Notes under the pieces: model-generated
The model's input: the letters and a program-made list of their open reading frames with translations, nothing else
What the model was told of the DNA's origin: nothing
The model's database searches: none
In this document: positions 30,255-60,181 of the stretch, piece after piece
How positions within the stretch are numbered: the first letter of the stretch is position 1
Layout: each line of letters opens with the position of its first letter
Origin: a virus
Length of the DNA: 64,000 nucleotides
Virus record (IMG/VR): IMGVR_UViG_3300032011_003203
Coordinates: 1 to 64,000 of that record
Reading direction: 5' to 3' (one strand)
Position numbers and translations under genes: made by a program

Positions 30255-31874
30255 ATGAAAAAATGGTTTTATGAGAGAAGTAAATTCTCTGAGTTTAAAT
30301 CGAATACGACTTATCATAAGTTGTTAAAGATGTCAGTAGAAGAGTTTAATGATTGGGCACGATTACTTAGACAAGAAGTTACTACTCAATGGGATGAATA
30401 CGGAACACCACCCGTAATCGGTAAAGATGAAGATGGTATCATTAAGAAATTCAAAAAACTAAAAGACAATCCTTGTGATTATTTAATTGAAGATAATACT
30501 GGTGATGATGAATCACTTGGTATAATTAAGAACTTCAATAAAGATGCGAGTAGTGTTAATCAGTTCTTTCCAACAATGTTAAAAACAAAAATCAGTATTG
30601 GTGCATCAGCCGATAATGGTTTATCTATCTATGACCACTTTGGTGACCCAGAGTTAGAAGATAAGTTTGTTCACATTATGCGTAGAGCAGTAAAGAAAGA
30701 TTCTATGTATAGTTGGAGTAGAAGTATCGTAACTAAGAAAGATGAGAATCCTTTTTGGAATGGTGAGACTGGTAAAGAATTTATTAAGAATGTTTATGAT
30801 GGTAAAGTTTCTATTGGTAAATATTCAGATACAAGATTTGTACTTGCAAGAGTAAAGAAAAGTACAGTCGGTAATTATGGTACTATGAATGAAGAGTTTA
30901 AAGGACACGGAAATGTTTATTTAACTGCAGAGGAAGTACAAGATTGTAAGGATAGTGGTTATTTAAATGATACACAATTAAGTAACATACCAGATATAGT
31001 TTCATCTGAAACAAGTAAGACTGGTAAAGTAACTGAGTTCTTATATCTAATTAGACACTATGATAAAACTATTGGAATCTTTCCAAAGATATTACAAGTG
31101 TTTAGATTAGCGTGTGGACAACCTGCAGTAAACTTTCCACCACTAACAGCAAAACTTTTGTATGAAAAATTTACAGACCATATAGATAATCAAGAACAAA
31201 CATTTCATATCTATGACCCATCAAGTGGTTGGGGTGGTAGAATTTTAGGAGCAATGAGTTCTCGTAAGAATATACACTATGTTGGTACAGACCCTAATCC
31301 AGATAATTTAGGTAGATATCAAGCAGTTGCTGATTTCTATAATAATAATTGTGTTGATGATTTCTCTGAAAACTTTAATAAGTTTTTTGATGTAGAAAAA
31401 CAATCAAACACATATGAAGTATTTAGTGATGGTAGTGAATTAATATCTAACAATCCAGCATTTCAAAAATATAAAGGTAAGTTGGATGTAGTATTTACAT
31501 CACCACCATATTTTAATCGTGAACAATATTCTCAAGATGAGAACCAGTCGTTCAAGGCCTATGGTGAGTATCAAGACTGGAGAGATAACTTCTTAGAACC
31601 CACATTACGAACCGCTTACGAGTATCTAAAGAATGATAGATATATCCTTTGGAACATCGCAAGTATCAAAATAGGTGCAAATACTTATTATGATTTAGAG
31701 GGTGATAGTAGAAAAATCTTAGAAGAACTTGGGTGTGAATATAAAGGTAAATTAAAAATGTTAATGACAAGAATGATTGGGTTAGACCCATCTAAGACTG
31801 GAATTTTAAATTCAGTACAACACGATAATAATGTGTATAAGTTTGAACCAATATTTGTGTACTATAAAAGATGA
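30255..31874 (+). CDS. DNA methyltransferase-like protein with large N-terminal domain
   Basis: 539 residues. The C-terminal part has a SAM-binding segment Y-D-P-S-S-G-W-G-G-R-I-L-G then V-G-T-D-P-N, and the catalytic motif F-T-S-P-P-Y-F (S416-P-P-Y), typical of N4-cytosine or N6-adenine methyltransferases. The first 300 residues match no family I recognise and are lysine-rich and aromatic. Its 3' end overlaps the thymidylate-synthase-like gene. It may modify phage DNA or nucleotides. Confidence 0.75.
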   Translation: MKKWFYERSKFSEFKSNTTYHKLLKMSVEEFNDWARLLRQEVTTQWDEYGTPPVIGKDEDGIIKKFKKLKDNPCDYLIEDNTGDDESLGIIKNFNKDASSVNQFFPTMLKTKISIGASADNGLSIYDHFGDPELEDKFVHIMRRAVKKDSMYSWSRSIVTKKDENPFWNGETGKEFIKNVYDGKVSIGKYSDTRFVLARVKKSTVGNYGTMNEEFKGHGNVYLTAEEVQDCKDSGYLNDTQLSNIPDIVSSETSKTGKVTEFLYLIRHYDKTIGIFPKILQVFRLACGQPAVNFPPLTAKLLYEKFTDHIDNQEQTFHIYDPSSGWGGRILGAMSSRKNIHYVGTDPNPDNLGRYQAVADFYNNNCVDDFSENFNKFFDVEKQSNTYEVFSDGSELISNNPAFQKYKGKLDVVFTSPPYFNREQYSQDENQSFKAYGEYQDWRDNFLEPTLRTAYEYLKNDRYILWNIASIKIGANTYYDLEGDSRKILEELGCEYKGKLKMLMTRMIGLDPSKTGILNSVQHDNNVYKFEPIFVYYKR

Positions 31875-52856: not shown

Positions 52857-52871
52857 TTTGTAAATATATTA

Positions 52872-52879
52872 TATTTATT
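52872..52879 (+). promoter_or_regulatory. Late-promoter-like TATTTATT box with structured leader
   Basis: TATATTATATTTATTA, identical to 16 bases before phoH. Just downstream GGAAC-GAAGA-GTTCC (52883-52897) forms a hairpin. A leader with CCCGCG and GGTTAACAT also recalls the phoH leader. The T9SS cargo gene starts at 52973. Confidence 0.5.
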
Positions 52880-52972
52880 ATTGGAACGAAGAGTTCCAAA
52901 ATTTAATCCGTAGCATACCCGCGAGCGGAAGGTTAACATAGAGATAGAATAACAACATATAAGGAATTTTAA

Positions 52973-55606
52973 ATGTCCAATTATTTAAAATCTTTGGTTC
53001 TATTATTGGTACTTTCCCTATCGTGGGCACAAGAGCCGATAATCCGAATCAAACAAACAGGCGAATATAATTTACCAAAAACTTGGTGGAGAGAATCGGA
53101 AACTTTCCAACTACAAACATACCTTGCAGATGATAAAGATAATCCTGCATTGTATAACAATAACTTTGATGCATTTAGAGATAGTGTGATGACAATGGAA
53201 GTTACACTTGATGATAATGGTGCAGATATAACAGCATTTAGATTAGATATAGTTTTTGACAATGATTTAATTGATTGGGACCACGATGATACAGAAGTAT
53301 TAAAGGGTTCTCACTTATCAAGTGCAACAGAGGGAGATTCAACTGCAGGAGCAGATTACTCATATGAAGTTGTACACTATTCTAATGTAGGATATATTGA
53401 TTCACTTCAAACTGCAGATGGTGAAATATCTGAAAACAATAATAGATATGATTGGTTAAGAATCACTATGGTATCACACAATGGAAATACTTTTGAATTT
53501 GGTGGTGGTGATGGTGTACAAAAACAATTAATAAAATTAAATTTTAAAATAGAAGATGTAGTAGATAATTTTTCACCACAATCGTTTAGAGTTCCAACAT
53601 TATACAATGGTGGTTTTGGGTACTACACATACGCTTCAGATGATTATCTTTTAGATTACAAGGTTTACATCGATGGTAATTGGGGAACGGAAGAAACTGA
53701 TGATGGTGGTGCTCGTGGAGATATCACACTACATCCAAAACTTTTAGATGTTGAGGGATTCTTTAGATACGCACAAAGAAATGGTACTAATGATGATAGA
53801 ACTTATCCTTATTGGAAAGTTGTATTTGAACTTGACCAAAGTAATCCAGGTAGTGTTTCTAATTGGTATAACATTGAGGATATAGATGATGAGACAAGTA
53901 ATACTGATGAAACCACTACTGATGATGTTATCGGTGATGGAACATCTACATTTTGGTTTGATGACCAAGGAACTACTGCAGCACAAACTTTACCAGGTGA
54001 GGGTTTCTTAGGAATTAGTTATTATGATTCTACATTTGTTGATGATAGAGGATATTTTAATATTCAATTACCAAGAAATAATTACTATCGTGTATCGTTT
54101 TATCCACCAGATGCAGATGATGATATAGGTACACATACACAATACGAACTTGATAGATATGCAATTACAAATATTAATGATGCTATTGCTGCATTTAATT
54201 TTCAAAGTAACAAATGGAAATCAGTAACAGGTGTTGATACTTTAGATGCAGTTGAATATTTTATTGGTGATGTTGATGGTGATGATGTATTTCAATTAAA
54301 TGATGCTTATTTCTTATGGGCATATACTTCAGGTATATTTGAAAACTATACACACTTAAATGGAAACTCATATGAGAATTGGAGTACGATTGATACATTA
54401 AAAGAAAATGGTAATCCATTTCCATATGAATGGTATGAAGATTTAGGAGCACAGAAATACGAATTTACAGTCTTTGAGGATGATGATTTTGACCAATCCG
54501 AAGAATTAAATTTTGGAGTAATAGAAGTTACTAATCCATTGATGAATACAATTCAGACTGGGTTAGATACTTTGGGTGTAACATTAGGTGCAGGTAACTC
54601 TACATATGGTAGTGATGCTAATCCAGATTTAACTTTACCTGATTGGGGATATTTCTTTACAGGAGATATTAATAATACTGGTACTAAAGTACAAGAACCA
54701 GGTAATGATGCAGATGGGTATATAGATGTAAATGGAACAACATTCTATCGTTGGGGTAACGGAAGTGCACCAGGTACTTGGGCAAATAAAATTGCTACTC
54801 AAACTCCAGATGTATTTTTCTCAATGCCAGCAGATTCAACTGTCAGAGTACAAAGTGGTGACCAAATAGAAGTACCATTTTATATTACACCAGACCAATT
54901 AAAAAATATTGATGTTGCTGGATTTGAGTTCGAGGTGTTATTCAATACCAATCAGTTAACATTTATTGATATGAAAACAGATGTTCTTCCAGGCCCGTGG
55001 TTTACTTATGTAAATGTACACGAACCTGATGATATAGGGTATCAGAAAGTATCGTTTGGTGGTATGGATTATTCACCAGGTAATGCACCACAACAATATT
55101 GGATTAATGAACCTATGATTGCATTGAATATGATTTTCCAAGCAGATTTTCCTGATTCAGAGTGGACTGAAGCAGATGTACAATTTGTTGGTAAAGGTGT
55201 AGCTGGTAATCCAAGTGGTCAAGATTTATTAGTAAATAAACAAGATGGTAAAATATTAGTATGGAATAAGTATTGGGCATTCGGTGGTGGAGAACCAGAT
55301 GATGATGAGATAACTTATAACTATCCTAATCCATTTAATGAAACTACAAAGTTCCAATTTTATGTAGATGAGTTAACTGATGTTAAAATCTACATCTTAA
55401 ATTCAATGGGACAGTATATTGGTAAATTATTAGATGAACCAGTTTCACAAGGTATTCATACATTTGATTTTAGTAACACACCAGGTGCGTGGTTACCAGA
55501 AGAAAGTGTTTATCAAGAGCATAAAGTATTAGAACCAGGTGTTTATATATTTGTTCTTGAAACAGATAAGAGAATTAAAGCTAACAAATTCACGGTCGTG
55601 AAGTAG
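52973..55606 (+). CDS. Secreted multidomain protein with T9SS-type C-terminal sorting domain
   Basis: 877 residues. A signal peptide (1-19, ending S-W-A-Q) is followed by cohesin-like beta regions (about 60-200 and 620-750). A dockerin-like D-V-D-G-D-D-V segment lies near 430. From N783, N-Y-P-N-P-F-N and then K-I-Y-I-L-N, G-V-Y-I-F-V-L and K-F-T-V-V-K make a type IX secretion (Por) sorting domain, typical of Bacteroidetes, Ignavibacteria and Marinimicrobia. In such hosts the protein would be exported and placed on the cell surface. It is the first gene of the envelope block. Confidence 0.8.
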   Translation: MSNYLKSLVLLLVLSLSWAQEPIIRIKQTGEYNLPKTWWRESETFQLQTYLADDKDNPALYNNNFDAFRDSVMTMEVTLDDNGADITAFRLDIVFDNDLIDWDHDDTEVLKGSHLSSATEGDSTAGADYSYEVVHYSNVGYIDSLQTADGEISENNNRYDWLRITMVSHNGNTFEFGGGDGVQKQLIKLNFKIEDVVDNFSPQSFRVPTLYNGGFGYYTYASDDYLLDYKVYIDGNWGTEETDDGGARGDITLHPKLLDVEGFFRYAQRNGTNDDRTYPYWKVVFELDQSNPGSVSNWYNIEDIDDETSNTDETTTDDVIGDGTSTFWFDDQGTTAAQTLPGEGFLGISYYDSTFVDDRGYFNIQLPRNNYYRVSFYPPDADDDIGTHTQYELDRYAITNINDAIAAFNFQSNKWKSVTGVDTLDAVEYFIGDVDGDDVFQLNDAYFLWAYTSGIFENYTHLNGNSYENWSTIDTLKENGNPFPYEWYEDLGAQKYEFTVFEDDDFDQSEELNFGVIEVTNPLMNTIQTGLDTLGVTLGAGNSTYGSDANPDLTLPDWGYFFTGDINNTGTKVQEPGNDADGYIDVNGTTFYRWGNGSAPGTWANKIATQTPDVFFSMPADSTVRVQSGDQIEVPFYITPDQLKNIDVAGFEFEVLFNTNQLTFIDMKTDVLPGPWFTYVNVHEPDDIGYQKVSFGGMDYSPGNAPQQYWINEPMIALNMIFQADFPDSEWTEADVQFVGKGVAGNPSGQDLLVNKQDGKILVWNKYWAFGGGEPDDDEITYNYPNPFNETTKFQFYVDELTDVKIYILNSMGQYIGKLLDEPVSQGIHTFDFSNTPGAWLPEESVYQEHKVLEPGVYIFVLETDKRIKANKFTVVK

Positions 55607-55612
55607 GAAAAG

Positions 55613-56482
55613 ATGATGAAAAAAATATTATTAAGTTTACTATTAATCAGTTCTTTATTTGGACAAGTTAATAGAATATTAACATTATCACCAACAGCAG
55701 AAGAAGCAAGTTTAGGAAACCAATCATTGGCATTTCATAATCCTGCTCGTGCGTATTTTGATACAGATAGTTTAGTTGATTTAAGCTTTACACGAGTAAA
55801 TTGGTTAACTAATATTACAGATGATATGGGATATAACTATGTTGGTGCTGGATATAAAAATTTAACATTTAGTTTACTATACTTTGATTATGGTGAACAA
55901 AATGTTGCAGATATAAATGGAACTATATCAGGACAATTTAGTCCTAACTCACTTGTTGCATATGTTGGGTGGGGTACTAAATTAGAACACAAAAGAAAAA
56001 AAGTAGAAAACATTGCTATTGGTTTTGGTGGTAAAATTGTTAACCATACATTACATACCGATAAGGCAACTGGTATACTTGTAGATGCTGGAGTACACTT
56101 TAAGAATCTATGGAGTAGAGTTGATTTAGATTTAGCAATTCAAAACTTTGGATATCAACCAAAATTTAATGATTGGAAAACAGAAGTACCTACAAGTGTT
56201 AATGTAGGGTTTTCAGTACCAGTAAAAGATTTTAGATTTTACAACCAATGGAATTTGTATGATGGATATCATACACACGGTCAAGGGTTAAAATATCAAT
56301 ACAAGAATTTAATGGATTTTAACATTGGATACTTTAATGATGTAACTCACGAACTAAATTATTCTTCAGTTGGTTTAGGATTTAAAGTAGATAGTTACAG
56401 AGTAGGGGTTGGGTACATCAATGGTGATGAAACCTTTCCTTTAAGTAATACATTTCAGTTAACCATAAATGTGGAGATATAA
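55613..56482 (+). CDS. PorV/PorQ-like outer-membrane protein
   Basis: 289 residues. Signal peptide (1-17, ending F-G-Q) followed by T-A-E-E-A-S-L-G-N-Q-S-L-A-F-H-N-P-A-R. This resembles the G-x-x-A-x-x-L-G-x-x-x-A-x-x-N-P-A start of PorV/PorQ and related FadL-fold barrels of the FCB group. Many aromatic strands follow. PorV helps T9SS cargo cross the outer membrane, and this gene directly follows a T9SS-type cargo gene. PorP/SprF-like or other barrels are alternatives. Confidence 0.6.
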   Translation: MMKKILLSLLLISSLFGQVNRILTLSPTAEEASLGNQSLAFHNPARAYFDTDSLVDLSFTRVNWLTNITDDMGYNYVGAGYKNLTFSLLYFDYGEQNVADINGTISGQFSPNSLVAYVGWGTKLEHKRKKVENIAIGFGGKIVNHTLHTDKATGILVDAGVHFKNLWSRVDLDLAIQNFGYQPKFNDWKTEVPTSVNVGFSVPVKDFRFYNQWNLYDGYHTHGQGLKYQYKNLMDFNIGYFNDVTHELNYSSVGLGFKVDSYRVGVGYINGDETFPLSNTFQLTINVEI

Positions 56483-56558: not shown

Positions 56559-56969
56559 ATGGCAAAAGACATAGTAGATGCAGAGAATCTCGTTGAAGAG
56601 ATTAAAGGAAAAAAGTTTGGATTATCGATTAATAACATTGTTGCTATTGTTACTTTTCTTTCTACCGCTATTGCTGGTTGGTATAGTTTTACTGCCCGCA
56701 TTGATTCGTTGGAAGAAGTAGTTACAGGTTTTGCAGATGCAAGTGATATAGAAATCGTAACCGAAAAATTCAATAAGTATGATGAGATATTTGCAGGGTA
56801 CGATGAGGACCTGGTATATCTTCGTGATAAAGTTGATAAACTAAAAAGTCCAAAAATTAAATCTTACGATGGTGATATTATCAAACTTGAAAATGAGATT
56901 GATAAATTAAATGGTGAGATTAAACGATTGGAAAAACTACTGAAAGACCCGTTATCGGATTTCAGATAA
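56559..56969 (+). CDS. Membrane-anchored coiled-coil protein, 136 residues
   Basis: A helix at about 22-42 (N-N-I-V-A-I-V-T-F-L-S-T-A-I-A-G-W) is followed by a long coiled coil. AGGAG precedes the ATG. Part of the envelope block; could bridge membrane layers. Function unknown. Confidence 0.65.
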   Translation: MAKDIVDAENLVEEIKGKKFGLSINNIVAIVTFLSTAIAGWYSFTARIDSLEEVVTGFADASDIEIVTEKFNKYDEIFAGYDEDLVYLRDKVDKLKSPKIKSYDGDIIKLENEIDKLNGEIKRLEKLLKDPLSDFR

Positions 56970-56982
56970 ATAGGAGAAAAAA

Positions 56983-57624
56983 ATGAACAAGATATTCTCA
57001 ATATTGTTACTAATAGGTTTATACGGGTGTGCTGCATCAGTATCTACCGAACAATATGTTGGTGAGTATGAAAAGCAGAAATCATTGGATGAGGTAGAAA
57101 TTACCAAAGTTGATGGATTAAAAATAGTAGAGTTAAAAATTAATAAAGAACTCGAAGAAAGATATCCAGAACTTGCAGAAAAAAGGGTTGCATTTGGTCT
57201 TACACAAGAAATGGAAAATGTGGCATCTTATACAGGAAGATTCAATTTGATAGAGGCCGACAGAGATAATCAATTAATGATGTTGAATGATTTAAAAGCA
57301 AACAACGCTAAAATTGATGTTGCCAAATATTGGGGATATGTTACCATTTATGATTTTGCAGTAAACCTTACTGAAGATATCAAGGGTGGTAAAATAGTAA
57401 CAAGTAATGAAACTATTATTGGTATCCAGGTTAAATTGGTTAACTTAGAGAACACTCAATATGTAGTGGGTAGTGGTCAAGGAAGAGCCAAAACCATAGG
57501 ACAAGGATTTTTAAAAAATCCTAATATGGAATTTAACCAAAGTTCTTTGAGTTCCGCTGGTAACAAAGCAATGGAAACTGCTGTTGTTAATGTTATTAGA
57601 GCGATTGAAAGAAAGGGTTGGTAA
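56983..57624 (+). CDS. CsgG-like lipoprotein
   Basis: 213 residues. The lipobox L-Y-G-C (Cys16) follows a short signal peptide. The mature part has V-A-F-G-L-T-Q-E-M-E-N-V and R-F-N-L-I-E-A-D-R, and ends with a helix like N-K-A-M-E-T-A-V-V-N-V-I, consistent with the CsgG/curli-transport fold. CsgG forms an outer-membrane export channel. CsgG-like genes have, as I recall, been noted in other marine phages (unverified). Confidence 0.65.
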   Translation: MNKIFSILLLIGLYGCAASVSTEQYVGEYEKQKSLDEVEITKVDGLKIVELKINKELEERYPELAEKRVAFGLTQEMENVASYTGRFNLIEADRDNQLMMLNDLKANNAKIDVAKYWGYVTIYDFAVNLTEDIKGGKIVTSNETIIGIQVKLVNLENTQYVVGSGQGRAKTIGQGFLKNPNMEFNQSSLSSAGNKAMETAVVNVIRAIERKGW

Positions 57625-57633
57625 AAGAAATGA

Positions 57634-58626
57634 ATGTGGCAGAAATTATTATATATAGTATTACTATGTAGTTCGGTTTCTGCCCAGTCTTTCTTTTATA
57701 GTTATATTGACCCTTGTAATCAAACTACTATAAGGGAATCATATACTCTACAAGAGGATGGTGGTGGATTTCAAGTTACATATTATAATAGAACAAGATA
57801 CTTTACATTTGAACAAGTTTTAAATGGAGAGTTAGAATCTTGGGCAGAATCGGTTTATAATGATTTTGAAGATTTGTTTCCTTGTGCTGTTAGGGTTGCA
57901 GAAGAAGTGTTATCTTCGGTGATTGCAAGTAGTGCTGCATCACAATTCAGTAAAACTGATGATATATCAGTAGACCCACAACAAGTAAATTATGCGATAC
58001 AGAGTACCACACGAGATTCGTTAAGTGGTAAGTGGATTACTTCATTTAATAGTGTTTACACAAAAGAAAGTTTTGATGGTAGTAGACGACACGATGGTAA
58101 TCTAAATTTTACAGATGATTTAAGAAAGGGTTCGTTAACATACGGACAAGGATTTAAATTTAAGGCTAAGAAACAAAATGTACAATGGAATGGTACTGCA
58201 TTAGCTTTTGAAACATTCGAGGGGTGGGATTGGTTAGCTTCGGTATCCTACGCAAAATCCCTTGATAAACCTTTATCAGAAGCGATTGTATTGACAGGAA
58301 CTTACGGAATGGTTAGTGATAATGGATTTGCTAATATCAATTTAGTATATGGTATGACATATCCATTTCAATTTCGTAATGCGGATTTAACAATAAGTAA
58401 TTATGTTGCTTACACATTGATGAGATATTACGAGGGTAATAATCGAGGTGAACGATATTTATTACTAAGAAGTCCAATAATAATGTTTCCAACCATTTCG
58501 GTGGATTGGAAGTTGGGACAAGCATTCAAATTGAATCTTGGTTTCTCAATGGGTTTAAATACAGTCGTGAATGATTACGGCGAACGAAGTAGAACATATA
58601 GTTTATTATTTGGAACTTACTTTTAA
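57634..58626 (+). CDS. Outer-membrane beta-barrel protein, 330 residues
   Basis: Signal peptide (1-19, ending V-S-A-Q), then aromatic alternating strands through residue 330, ending F-G-T-Y-F with the terminal Phe of outer-membrane proteins. Cys residues appear near the N-terminus (D-P-C-N-Q) and at C-A-V. It sits directly after the CsgG-like lipoprotein. Probably an export or adhesion barrel. Confidence 0.65.
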   Translation: MWQKLLYIVLLCSSVSAQSFFYSYIDPCNQTTIRESYTLQEDGGGFQVTYYNRTRYFTFEQVLNGELESWAESVYNDFEDLFPCAVRVAEEVLSSVIASSAASQFSKTDDISVDPQQVNYAIQSTTRDSLSGKWITSFNSVYTKESFDGSRRHDGNLNFTDDLRKGSLTYGQGFKFKAKKQNVQWNGTALAFETFEGWDWLASVSYAKSLDKPLSEAIVLTGTYGMVSDNGFANINLVYGMTYPFQFRNADLTISNYVAYTLMRYYEGNNRGERYLLLRSPIIMFPTISVDWKLGQAFKLNLGFSMGLNTVVNDYGERSRTYSLLFGTYF

Positions 58627-58636
58627 GGAGAAGAAA

Positions 58637-59158
58637 ATGAAAAAATTCTTAATTGGATTTTTATTAATTAGTGGTTTAATGAGTCAAGGTTTACCAGAAC
58701 CATCAATAGTTGGTGAGGGTAATCTGAAGAGACCTACTTTGAGAATATCAGAGTTTGTAAGTGTTTCTGATAAAGTAGTAGTTGAGGATGAAAGAATAAC
58801 ATTCGGTATTCGTCAATTATTACAAGAATCATTTTCAGATACACGATATATTTTAACTGATGATAATAATGCAGATTTTGTAGCATCAGTAGAGGTAGTG
58901 TATCTTGGTAAACCTAATGAGGCATTTAGTATTGTAGGATTATTTAATCGTAGAAGTACTAAAACAGAAGTTAGGTTAATGGTAAATATGGAAAACACCA
59001 AATCAGGTAATATTAAATCATCAAGGGGTGAGGGTGAAATTTCAACAACAATTACAGCTACAGGATTACAAATCTCTGATGATGTACCATTCAACAAAAC
59101 AGAGTTGGGTGGAGCAGTTAGAAAAGCTATTGATGATGCAATTTCCACACTCGAATAA
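58637..59158 (+). CDS. Second CsgG-like or envelope protein, 173 residues
   Basis: AAGGAG precedes ATG 58637, which gives a clean signal peptide (M-K-K-F-L-I-G-F-L-L-I-S-G-L-M-S-Q). The mature part has F-G-I-R-Q-L-L-Q-E-S-F and D-N-N-A-D-F-V-A-S-V-E-V, resembling the CsgG-type ABA/YfiO-like fold, and a closing helix. The upstream longer frame overlaps the previous gene and is rejected. Confidence 0.55.
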   Translation: MKKFLIGFLLISGLMSQGLPEPSIVGEGNLKRPTLRISEFVSVSDKVVVEDERITFGIRQLLQESFSDTRYILTDDNNADFVASVEVVYLGKPNEAFSIVGLFNRRSTKTEVRLMVNMENTKSGNIKSSRGEGEISTTITATGLQISDDVPFNKTELGGAVRKAIDDAISTLE

Positions 59159-59892
59159 TGATTAGAAAAGATACGATTCTTGGTGTTGTAATAAACATCT
59201 TGATTGTACTTGCTGTTGTGGGTACACGATATTATTACGCCAAACAAGAAATGGATTTTCTAACCAAAGATTCAGATAGACAGGAAGAATTAATAACTGT
59301 CAACAAAGTTGAGATAGATACTTTAAATCAGGAGGTTGAGTATTTGAGGGAATTATCAAATGACCAACATAATGAACTTCAAGATTTACAAGTAAAATAT
59401 TACGAACAAGTAAAATGGAATACCGAGTACAATCAGAAAATTAAAAATTTGAAAGATGACCTCGATAGTCTTGGAATAGAATTGGGATTAGCATATATGA
59501 ATACAATTCCATTTCAGTTTGAGTTCGGTTCACAAGATGCTTATATGAAAGTGTTTGGTGGAATGGGATATAAATTACAGAATAACGCAATAGTAGATTC
59601 AGAAACTAATGTTGGGTTTGATGGTAGATTACAATTTGGTGCACCTTTGGTTGACCAAGTTGGTAAACACGAATACCTTGTGTATAACGATGATAGAATT
59701 TGGGAATCAGGTGGTAATAGTGTTTATATGAGTGGTGGTGATGGACAACGAATAAAAGTTAAACCACCAAGAAACCAAATTAGTGTTGGACCATTTGTTG
59801 GAGTTCAATACGATAAGAGTACTGGATTAACAGAACCCGTAATTGGGTTCGGTGTAACTTATAATGCACTAAAAATATGGGATTGGAAATAA
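59158..59892 (+). CDS. Membrane-anchored coiled-coil protein with beta C-terminus, 244 residues
   Basis: N-terminal helix (I-L-G-V-V-I-N-I-L-I-V-L-A-V-V), a coiled coil at about 30-105, and an aromatic, strand-rich C-terminus (V-G-P-F-V-G-V-Q-Y). It shares a base with the upstream stop. Likely spans the periplasm; last gene of the envelope block. Confidence 0.6.
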   Translation: MIRKDTILGVVINILIVLAVVGTRYYYAKQEMDFLTKDSDRQEELITVNKVEIDTLNQEVEYLRELSNDQHNELQDLQVKYYEQVKWNTEYNQKIKNLKDDLDSLGIELGLAYMNTIPFQFEFGSQDAYMKVFGGMGYKLQNNAIVDSETNVGFDGRLQFGAPLVDQVGKHEYLVYNDDRIWESGGNSVYMSGGDGQRIKVKPPRNQISVGPFVGVQYDKSTGLTEPVIGFGVTYNALKIWDWK

Positions 59893-59893
59893 A

Positions 59894-60181
59894 ATGGCTT
59901 TTATAATAGCAGAACCTTGTGTGGGAACTTGTGATACAGCTTGTGTAGATGTATGTCCAGTAGATTGTATTCACGGCCCAATTGATAAGGATGGGTTAGG
60001 AGCAGAAGTACCTGGATTAGATACATTAGATGGGAAACAATTATACATTGACCCAGAAGAATGTATTGATTGTGGTGCTTGTGAACCTGAGTGTCCAGTT
60101 GAAGCTATATTTGATGAAGATATGTTACCAGATGAATGGAAAGAATATATCGATATTAATGCAAACTTTTTTAAAGATTAG
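59894..60181 (+). CDS. Bacterial-type ferredoxin (7Fe or 2[4Fe-4S])
   Basis: 95 residues. The first cluster has C9, C13, C17 and C21-P; the second C-I-D-C-G-A-C-E-P-E-C-P near residues 57-67. This arrangement fits a 7Fe or two-4Fe ferredoxin. Phage ferredoxins are usually the 2Fe plant type; this one could feed electrons to the phage radical SAM enzyme or host reductases. Confidence 0.85.
   Translation: MAFIIAEPCVGTCDTACVDVCPVDCIHGPIDKDGLGAEVPGLDTLDGKQLYIDPEECIDCGACEPECPVEAIFDEDMLPDEWKEYIDINANFFKD

Follow-up and report, generated by a model that had tools for sequence, protein, structure and literature searches.

In the type IX secretion system (T9SS), PorV collects cargo proteins with a type A C-terminal domain (CTD) from the SprA pore (PMC10994853, PMC12618676). 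The known cargo of this type uses PorV and is cleaved (PMC12618676, PMC10202324), and the lysines of CTD motif E are required for its efficient secretion (PMC10202324). In the solved complexes, a lysine close to the C terminus contacts PorV, and the main-chain carbonyls of PorV Asn87 and Phe115 bind the CTD lysine (PMC10994853). The genes for type B cargo commonly precede the gene for a FadL-type shuttle of their own, PorP/SprF, and this barrel can anchor its cargo (PMC12618676; PMC9143113). Here we analyze a phage locus in which a T9SS-type cargo gene is followed directly by the gene for a PorV/PorQ-family barrel. The locus lies in a 64,000-nt stretch (positions 1 to 64,000, hereafter the window) of the 81,264-base IMG/VR virus record IMGVR_UViG_3300032011_003203.

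Phage-encoded T9SS cargo is not unprecedented. In Cryophage, genes whose products carry a T9SS type A sorting domain have been described, with a proposal that the host system is used (PMC7468147), T9SS sorting domains occur on phage contigs in open reading frames (ORFs) of a gut phage BACON cluster (PMC6949934), and the cultured Flavobacterium phage immuto carries a cassette of this kind, discussed below. A search of the open-licence literature found no phage-encoded PorV-family shuttle, which is not proof of absence, and nothing on Marinimicrobia viruses with T9SS.

The cargo and barrel genes

Two tail genes are followed directly by an 877-residue ORF (52973–55606) and, after a gap of 6 bp, by a 289-residue ORF (55613–56482). 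These genes, like the box and the cassette genes described below, are on the plus strand. The sequence-only reading that led to this analysis had taken the first product for an exported protein with a T9SS sorting domain, and this is borne out at both ends. The hydrophobic N terminus, MSNYLKSLVLLLVLSLSWA-Q, is kept in the homologues, and in a crude hydropathy test it behaves as a Sec signal peptide ending SWA-Q (about residues 1–19; 52973–53029). At the other end, residues 784–875 match TIGR04183 at 25.6 bits where the curated cut-off is 23, a thin margin taken alone. The type A sorting domain (55322–55597) forms the exact end of the protein, TIGR04183 is matched by all 29 aligned viral cargo homologues (best E 1.1e-9), and the YPNPF motif and the motif-E lysine, Lys872, are invariant among them. 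Thus, the CTD assignment is settled at the family level.

Between signal peptide and CTD, the cargo contains two cohesin-like domains. The predicted structure is poor overall, with a predicted local distance difference test score (pLDDT) of 56, and therefore only domain-level matches were used; the best Foldseek matches of the model are cohesin modules. The first domain (about residues 64–206; 53162–53590) is β-rich and modeled with good local confidence, and the fold search with the whole model is topped by cohesins. The second (about residues 614–765; 54812–55267) has Foldseek cohesin matches and is homologous to immuto gp15, which residues 631–766 match with an E value of 1.1e-11 and a profile–profile probability of 96. 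Pfam finds no Cohesin domain in the window protein itself and does find one, above its cut-off, in gp15; on these grounds the cohesin-like domains of the sequence-only reading are retained. A dockerin-like motif, GDVDGDDVFQLNDAYFLWAY, was seen by eye at residues 431–452 (54263–54328); its columns are strongly conserved, and no curated model matches it. The cargo is conserved and under purifying selection along its full length, with a dN/dS of 0.16 against relative L007, and the dN/dS values for the cargo and barrel genes together range from 0.13 to 0.27.

The second ORF encodes an outer-membrane barrel of the PorV/PorQ family, a putative shuttle or anchor. It scores 100.7 bits with the family model NF033709 (cut-off 90), a model that 28 of 29 barrel homologues match at E ≤ 0.1; the homologues match the same families as the window barrel. 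The AlphaFold2 model (pLDDT 82.5) has 14 main strands by our count, as expected of a FadL-like 14-stranded barrel. In a Foldseek search of the PDB, its two best matches are the PorV chains of T9SS translocon structures, 8gl6_F and 6h3i_F, one of which holds a bound substrate CTD, and FadL comes next; in a profile search of PDB sequences (hmmsearch), PorV is the sole significant match (6.6e-15). In the alignment from the profile search, by hand-counted positions, PorV Asn87 and Phe115 align with phage Asp70, which adjoins the invariant Asp71, and with Tyr93, which is invariant in 29 homologues.

The sequence-only reading had also placed a late-promoter-like box ahead of the cargo gene. An AT-rich promoter-like box, TATTATATTTATTAT, lies at 52867–52881, about 100 bp upstream of the cargo gene. 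In 24 of 29 homologues, the 160 bp ahead of the cargo gene contain the core of this box, ATATTTAT, as compared to 4% of random windows, and the core is biased 19:4 toward the coding strand. The conserved box differs from the T4 late consensus, TATAAATA, which shows no enrichment (15 seen, 15.6 expected), and a T4 late promoter was accordingly rejected. The label "late" comes from the location of the box among tail genes.

Conservation and origin of the pair

The cargo family is present in at least 76 viral loci. Wherever at least 700 bp of downstream sequence is available, the barrel gene is the next gene: this is so for 44 of 44 distinct cargo genes. The pairing of a T9SS-type cargo with a PorV/PorQ-family barrel, which the sequence-only reading had suggested be sought in other marine phage contigs, is thus kept in every relative that can be checked. 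The two findings that it had named as fatal, a CTD unlike the Por sorting models and a barrel belonging to an unrelated family, did not appear.

The unit is larger than the pair, as several more small membrane or exported proteins, at least five, are encoded downstream (56559–59892). The next gene, also kept in relatives, encodes a small membrane protein with one hydrophobic helix (56559–56969). It is followed by a conserved exported lipoprotein (56983–57624), a homologue of immuto gp17 (E 2.7e-49); by a conserved, predicted outer-membrane protein with a signal peptide (57634–58626), a homologue of gp18 (E 5.7e-14); by a second exported protein (58637–59158), a homologue of gp19 (E 1.4e-15); and by a membrane-anchored coiled-coil protein (59158–59892) with weak matches to LysB/Rz-spanins. 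Relatives share this gene order, from the cargo and barrel through to the coiled-coil protein, even where identity in the cargo falls to about 50%.

The lipoprotein and the second exported protein are related to each other (hhalign profile–profile probability 96.7), and both look CsgG-like by eye with no support from curated models. For the lipoprotein, a low-confidence CsgG candidate, that identity was rejected: there is no PF03783 or other Pfam match and no match to CsgG in the PDB, and the resemblance comes down to one CsgG, with which the protein aligns collinearly but weakly.

The cargo family was not found among the INPHARED phages, and among 84,980 species genomes it occurs in one, on a contig that is of phage origin and carries this cassette too. 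PorV genes in three INPHARED records labeled "Bacteriophage sp." (MT836897, MT836010, MT835954) were set aside, as these records look like scraps of bacterial chromosome; in one example, porU-porV is followed by ispF- and mnmA-like genes (names by inspection).

Where does the barrel come from? A tree was made of the phage barrels together with PorV, PorQ and further members of the family from cellular Bacteroidota. In it, all phage barrels group as a single clade (99% support in the Shimodaira–Hasegawa-like approximate likelihood ratio test), which sits on a long branch apart from the clades of PorV and PorQ. Cellular matches in the sampled Bacteroidota reach about 105 bits at most, compared with 437 bits for the phage relative. 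Recent theft of a host PorV gene is ruled out for the sampled Bacteroidota by these scores and by the single, long-branched clade. The barrel is a separate phage clade, neither PorV nor PorQ proper, and an old phage lineage, although relatives may exist in unsampled phyla. The sequence-only reading, which had called it PorV/PorQ-like, is therefore right as to the family; an assignment to PorV or PorQ proper does not hold.

The cargo gene is a mosaic. Residues from about 620 onward covary with the barrel as well as with the genes downstream, whereas residues before about 610 do not. The breakpoint, near residues 611–620, coincides with the start of the homology to immuto gp15, which suggests that the long cargo may have been born by fusion.

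The related module in phage immuto has no barrel. Immuto (MW353176) is a cultured phage of Flavobacterium sp. LMO8, a member of a genus with T9SS. Its gp15 matches TIGR04183 with 47 bits and has Pfam Cohesin and Por_Secre_tail domains, both over the cut-off. Two further exported proteins, gp13, a C-type lectin, and gp14, are encoded upstream of gp15, and gp17, gp18 and gp19 follow. A search of the immuto genome did not find a PorV-like gene. A scan with gp17 recovered 80 uncultured viral loci, and a gp15-like gene is present in all 74 that have room upstream. It follows that the module is widespread and that, in this sample, the barrel is specific to the clade of the window virus. As between gain in that clade and loss in the immuto type, gain is the easier to picture.

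The closest matches of the baseplate wedge protein of the window virus are in Microcystis phage Mel-JY01, phage immuto and one uncultured phage; the virus is therefore a T4-like myovirus by gene content. The late region opens with a 539-residue protein (30255–31874) that phage DNA methyltransferases match across about 40% of its length. Directly after the cassette, at 59894–60181, is a gene for a two-cluster, FdxA-like ferredoxin; similar ferredoxins are found in a few other phage records, that of Microcystis phage MaAM05 among them, and also within the cassette of relative L170. Beyond the window, at record positions of about 66996–79985 (L250:4597-17586), a repetitive protein of 4329 residues is probably a giant tail fibre. 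By inspection, the exported cassette of one relative is followed by genes for an exported protein that resembles thioredoxin and for what is probably a holin with three helices (L011:16169-17016), and a thioredoxin is found near the cassette in immuto too.

A proposed surface-display module and its rivals

The locus probably encodes a phage surface-display module. It would work on the host T9SS, and the phage barrel would be its dedicated shuttle or anchor. The proposed sequence of events is as follows. During late expression the phage would make the multidomain cohesin-type protein, which Sec would export by means of its signal peptide. The host type IX translocon (SprA/Sov) would then move the cargo across the outer membrane in response to the type A C-terminal signal. 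The phage PorV-family barrel would collect the cargo from the translocon and shuttle it to, or hold it at, the surface, replacing host PorV or acting beside it. With the neighboring exported lipoproteins and the outer-membrane protein added, the phage would have built an assembly in the envelope that probably serves adhesion or masks the surface. A more specific version, offered tentatively and with more doubt than belief, is that this phage clade evolved a dedicated pair of type A signal and PorV-family shuttle, independent of host PorV and sortase, which builds a cohesin–dockerin lattice on the infected cell; on this version, a branch of a bacterial secretion pathway would be encoded by a virus.

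Several results weigh against the surface-display reading. The Pfam model PF18962 stays below threshold on the cargo CTD (17.7 bits, cut-off 27). The barrel falls short of the equivalog models for PorV (NF033710, 53.1 bits against 250) and PorQ (NF033711, 71 bits against 220). It also lacks a long loop that cellular PorV has after residue ~216, which strand order places on the extracellular side; thus, its CTD interface cannot be assumed to be identical to that of PorV. Identity in the CTD correlates with identity in the barrel (r = 0.83) no more strongly than with that in the other downstream genes (lipoprotein, 0.83; outer-membrane protein, 0.81), so that simple linkage suffices, and co-evolution was rejected as proof of contact between CTD and barrel. 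The barrel is absent from all 80 viral loci of the gp17 scan; since related phages do without it, it is not essential to the module generally. The sole genome match, NZWA01000008.1, is a phage contig binned in the Flavobacteriales metagenome-assembled genome NAT55, which is either a hint of the host or a binning error; NAT55 has a PorV over the cut-off, and the contig there is possibly mis-binned. Finally, what was observed is the domain identities, the conserved pairing and cassette, the purifying selection and the promoter-like box; secretion, contact between CTD and barrel, timing, the identity of the host and the purpose of the display (be it a block to superinfection, the holding of virions, adhesion or aggregation) are steps that we infer.

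The cargo gene comes before the barrel gene, as it does for type B cargo and SprF/PorP, a barrel that serves as anchor for its cargo (PMC9143113), and the phage barrel forms a clade of its own without the long PorV extracellular loop. These features would suit a fixed anchor, which would stay bound to a CTD that is not cleaved and keep the cargo attached to the outer membrane, as PorP/SprF does for type B cargo, making sortase or anionic lipopolysaccharide (A-LPS) attachment unnecessary. We regard this as unlikely, as the CTD is of type A and the known CTDs of this type use PorV and get cleaved (PMC12618676, PMC10202324), and both sequence and structure favor PorV over PorP. A further idea is that an unrelated nutrient channel of the FadL type has come to lie beside the cargo by chance: FadL/TodX transporters are the next structural matches, but PorV is clearly first by structure and by sequence profile, and with the pairing at 44 of 44 a chance neighbor is scarcely credible.

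Other explanations shift the weight from the display to the translocon or to the virion. The barrel is PorV-like in the region that meets the CTD, so that competition for SprA is conceivable, and the box and its location suggest late-type expression. Barrel and abundant cargo could then occupy the translocon, displace host PorV and stop the delivery of host surface proteins, such as phage receptors, thereby excluding superinfection. A mere plug would not need a long, multidomain, conserved cargo under purifying selection throughout, and immuto-type phages retain the cargo without the barrel; sabotage of this kind is thus quite improbable. Very improbable, in our estimate, is a role of the proteins in the virion or in lysis, with the cargo as a tail appendage and the barrel and lipoproteins disrupting the outer membrane. 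The window cassette does follow tail genes and includes the spanin-like protein, and a holin-like protein is encoded downstream in one relative, as noted above. However, virion proteins are not marked by signal peptides or by a T9SS CTD, and the immuto cassette (10.5–16.4 kb) is distant from its tail genes (~82–97 kb).

If the surface-display reading is correct, phages would add machinery to the T9SS, beyond placing passengers on the type IX pathway. The surface of the infected cell would be virus-designed in Bacteroidota-like bacteria, in which phage–host surface interactions are poorly understood. Phages with the barrel (the window type) and without it (the cultured immuto type) offer a natural comparison that makes what a dedicated shuttle adds testable, and the barrels provide new material on the recognition of type A signals by T9SS shuttles.

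Comparison with known systems

Among phages, the Cryophage cargo comprises enzymes together with a PA14 protein, all encoded within variable islands, and a shuttle is not reported in the available text of that source (PMC7468147). The gut phage BACON ORFs have domains other than those of the window cargo, and here too the available text reports no shuttle gene (PMC6949934). In the immuto gene group gp13–gp19, an exported cohesin protein with a type A CTD is followed by homologues of three window proteins. The group differs in lacking a PorV-like gene, in having three exported proteins (gp13–gp15) where the window has one long cargo, and in lying far from the tail genes.

Among cellular systems, PorV of Flavobacterium johnsoniae (6h3i, 8gl6) belongs to the same family as the phage barrel and is its best structural and profile match; the N-terminal region of PorV and its two positions that contact the CTD lysine align with conserved phage residues. 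PorV is longer (387 residues, against a phage median of 289), the long extracellular loop is its alone, and the phage barrel is below the PorV equivalog cut-off. In gene arrangement the nearest counterpart is the type B CTD with PorP/SprF in F. johnsoniae (PMC12618676), where the cargo gene is likewise followed directly by the gene for its FadL-type barrel. The phage CTD, by contrast, is of type A, and the phage barrel is PorV/PorQ-like rather than PorP-like. Thus, the phage pair follows the same logic as type B cargo and PorP/SprF, but its signal is of type A and its barrel is PorV-like.

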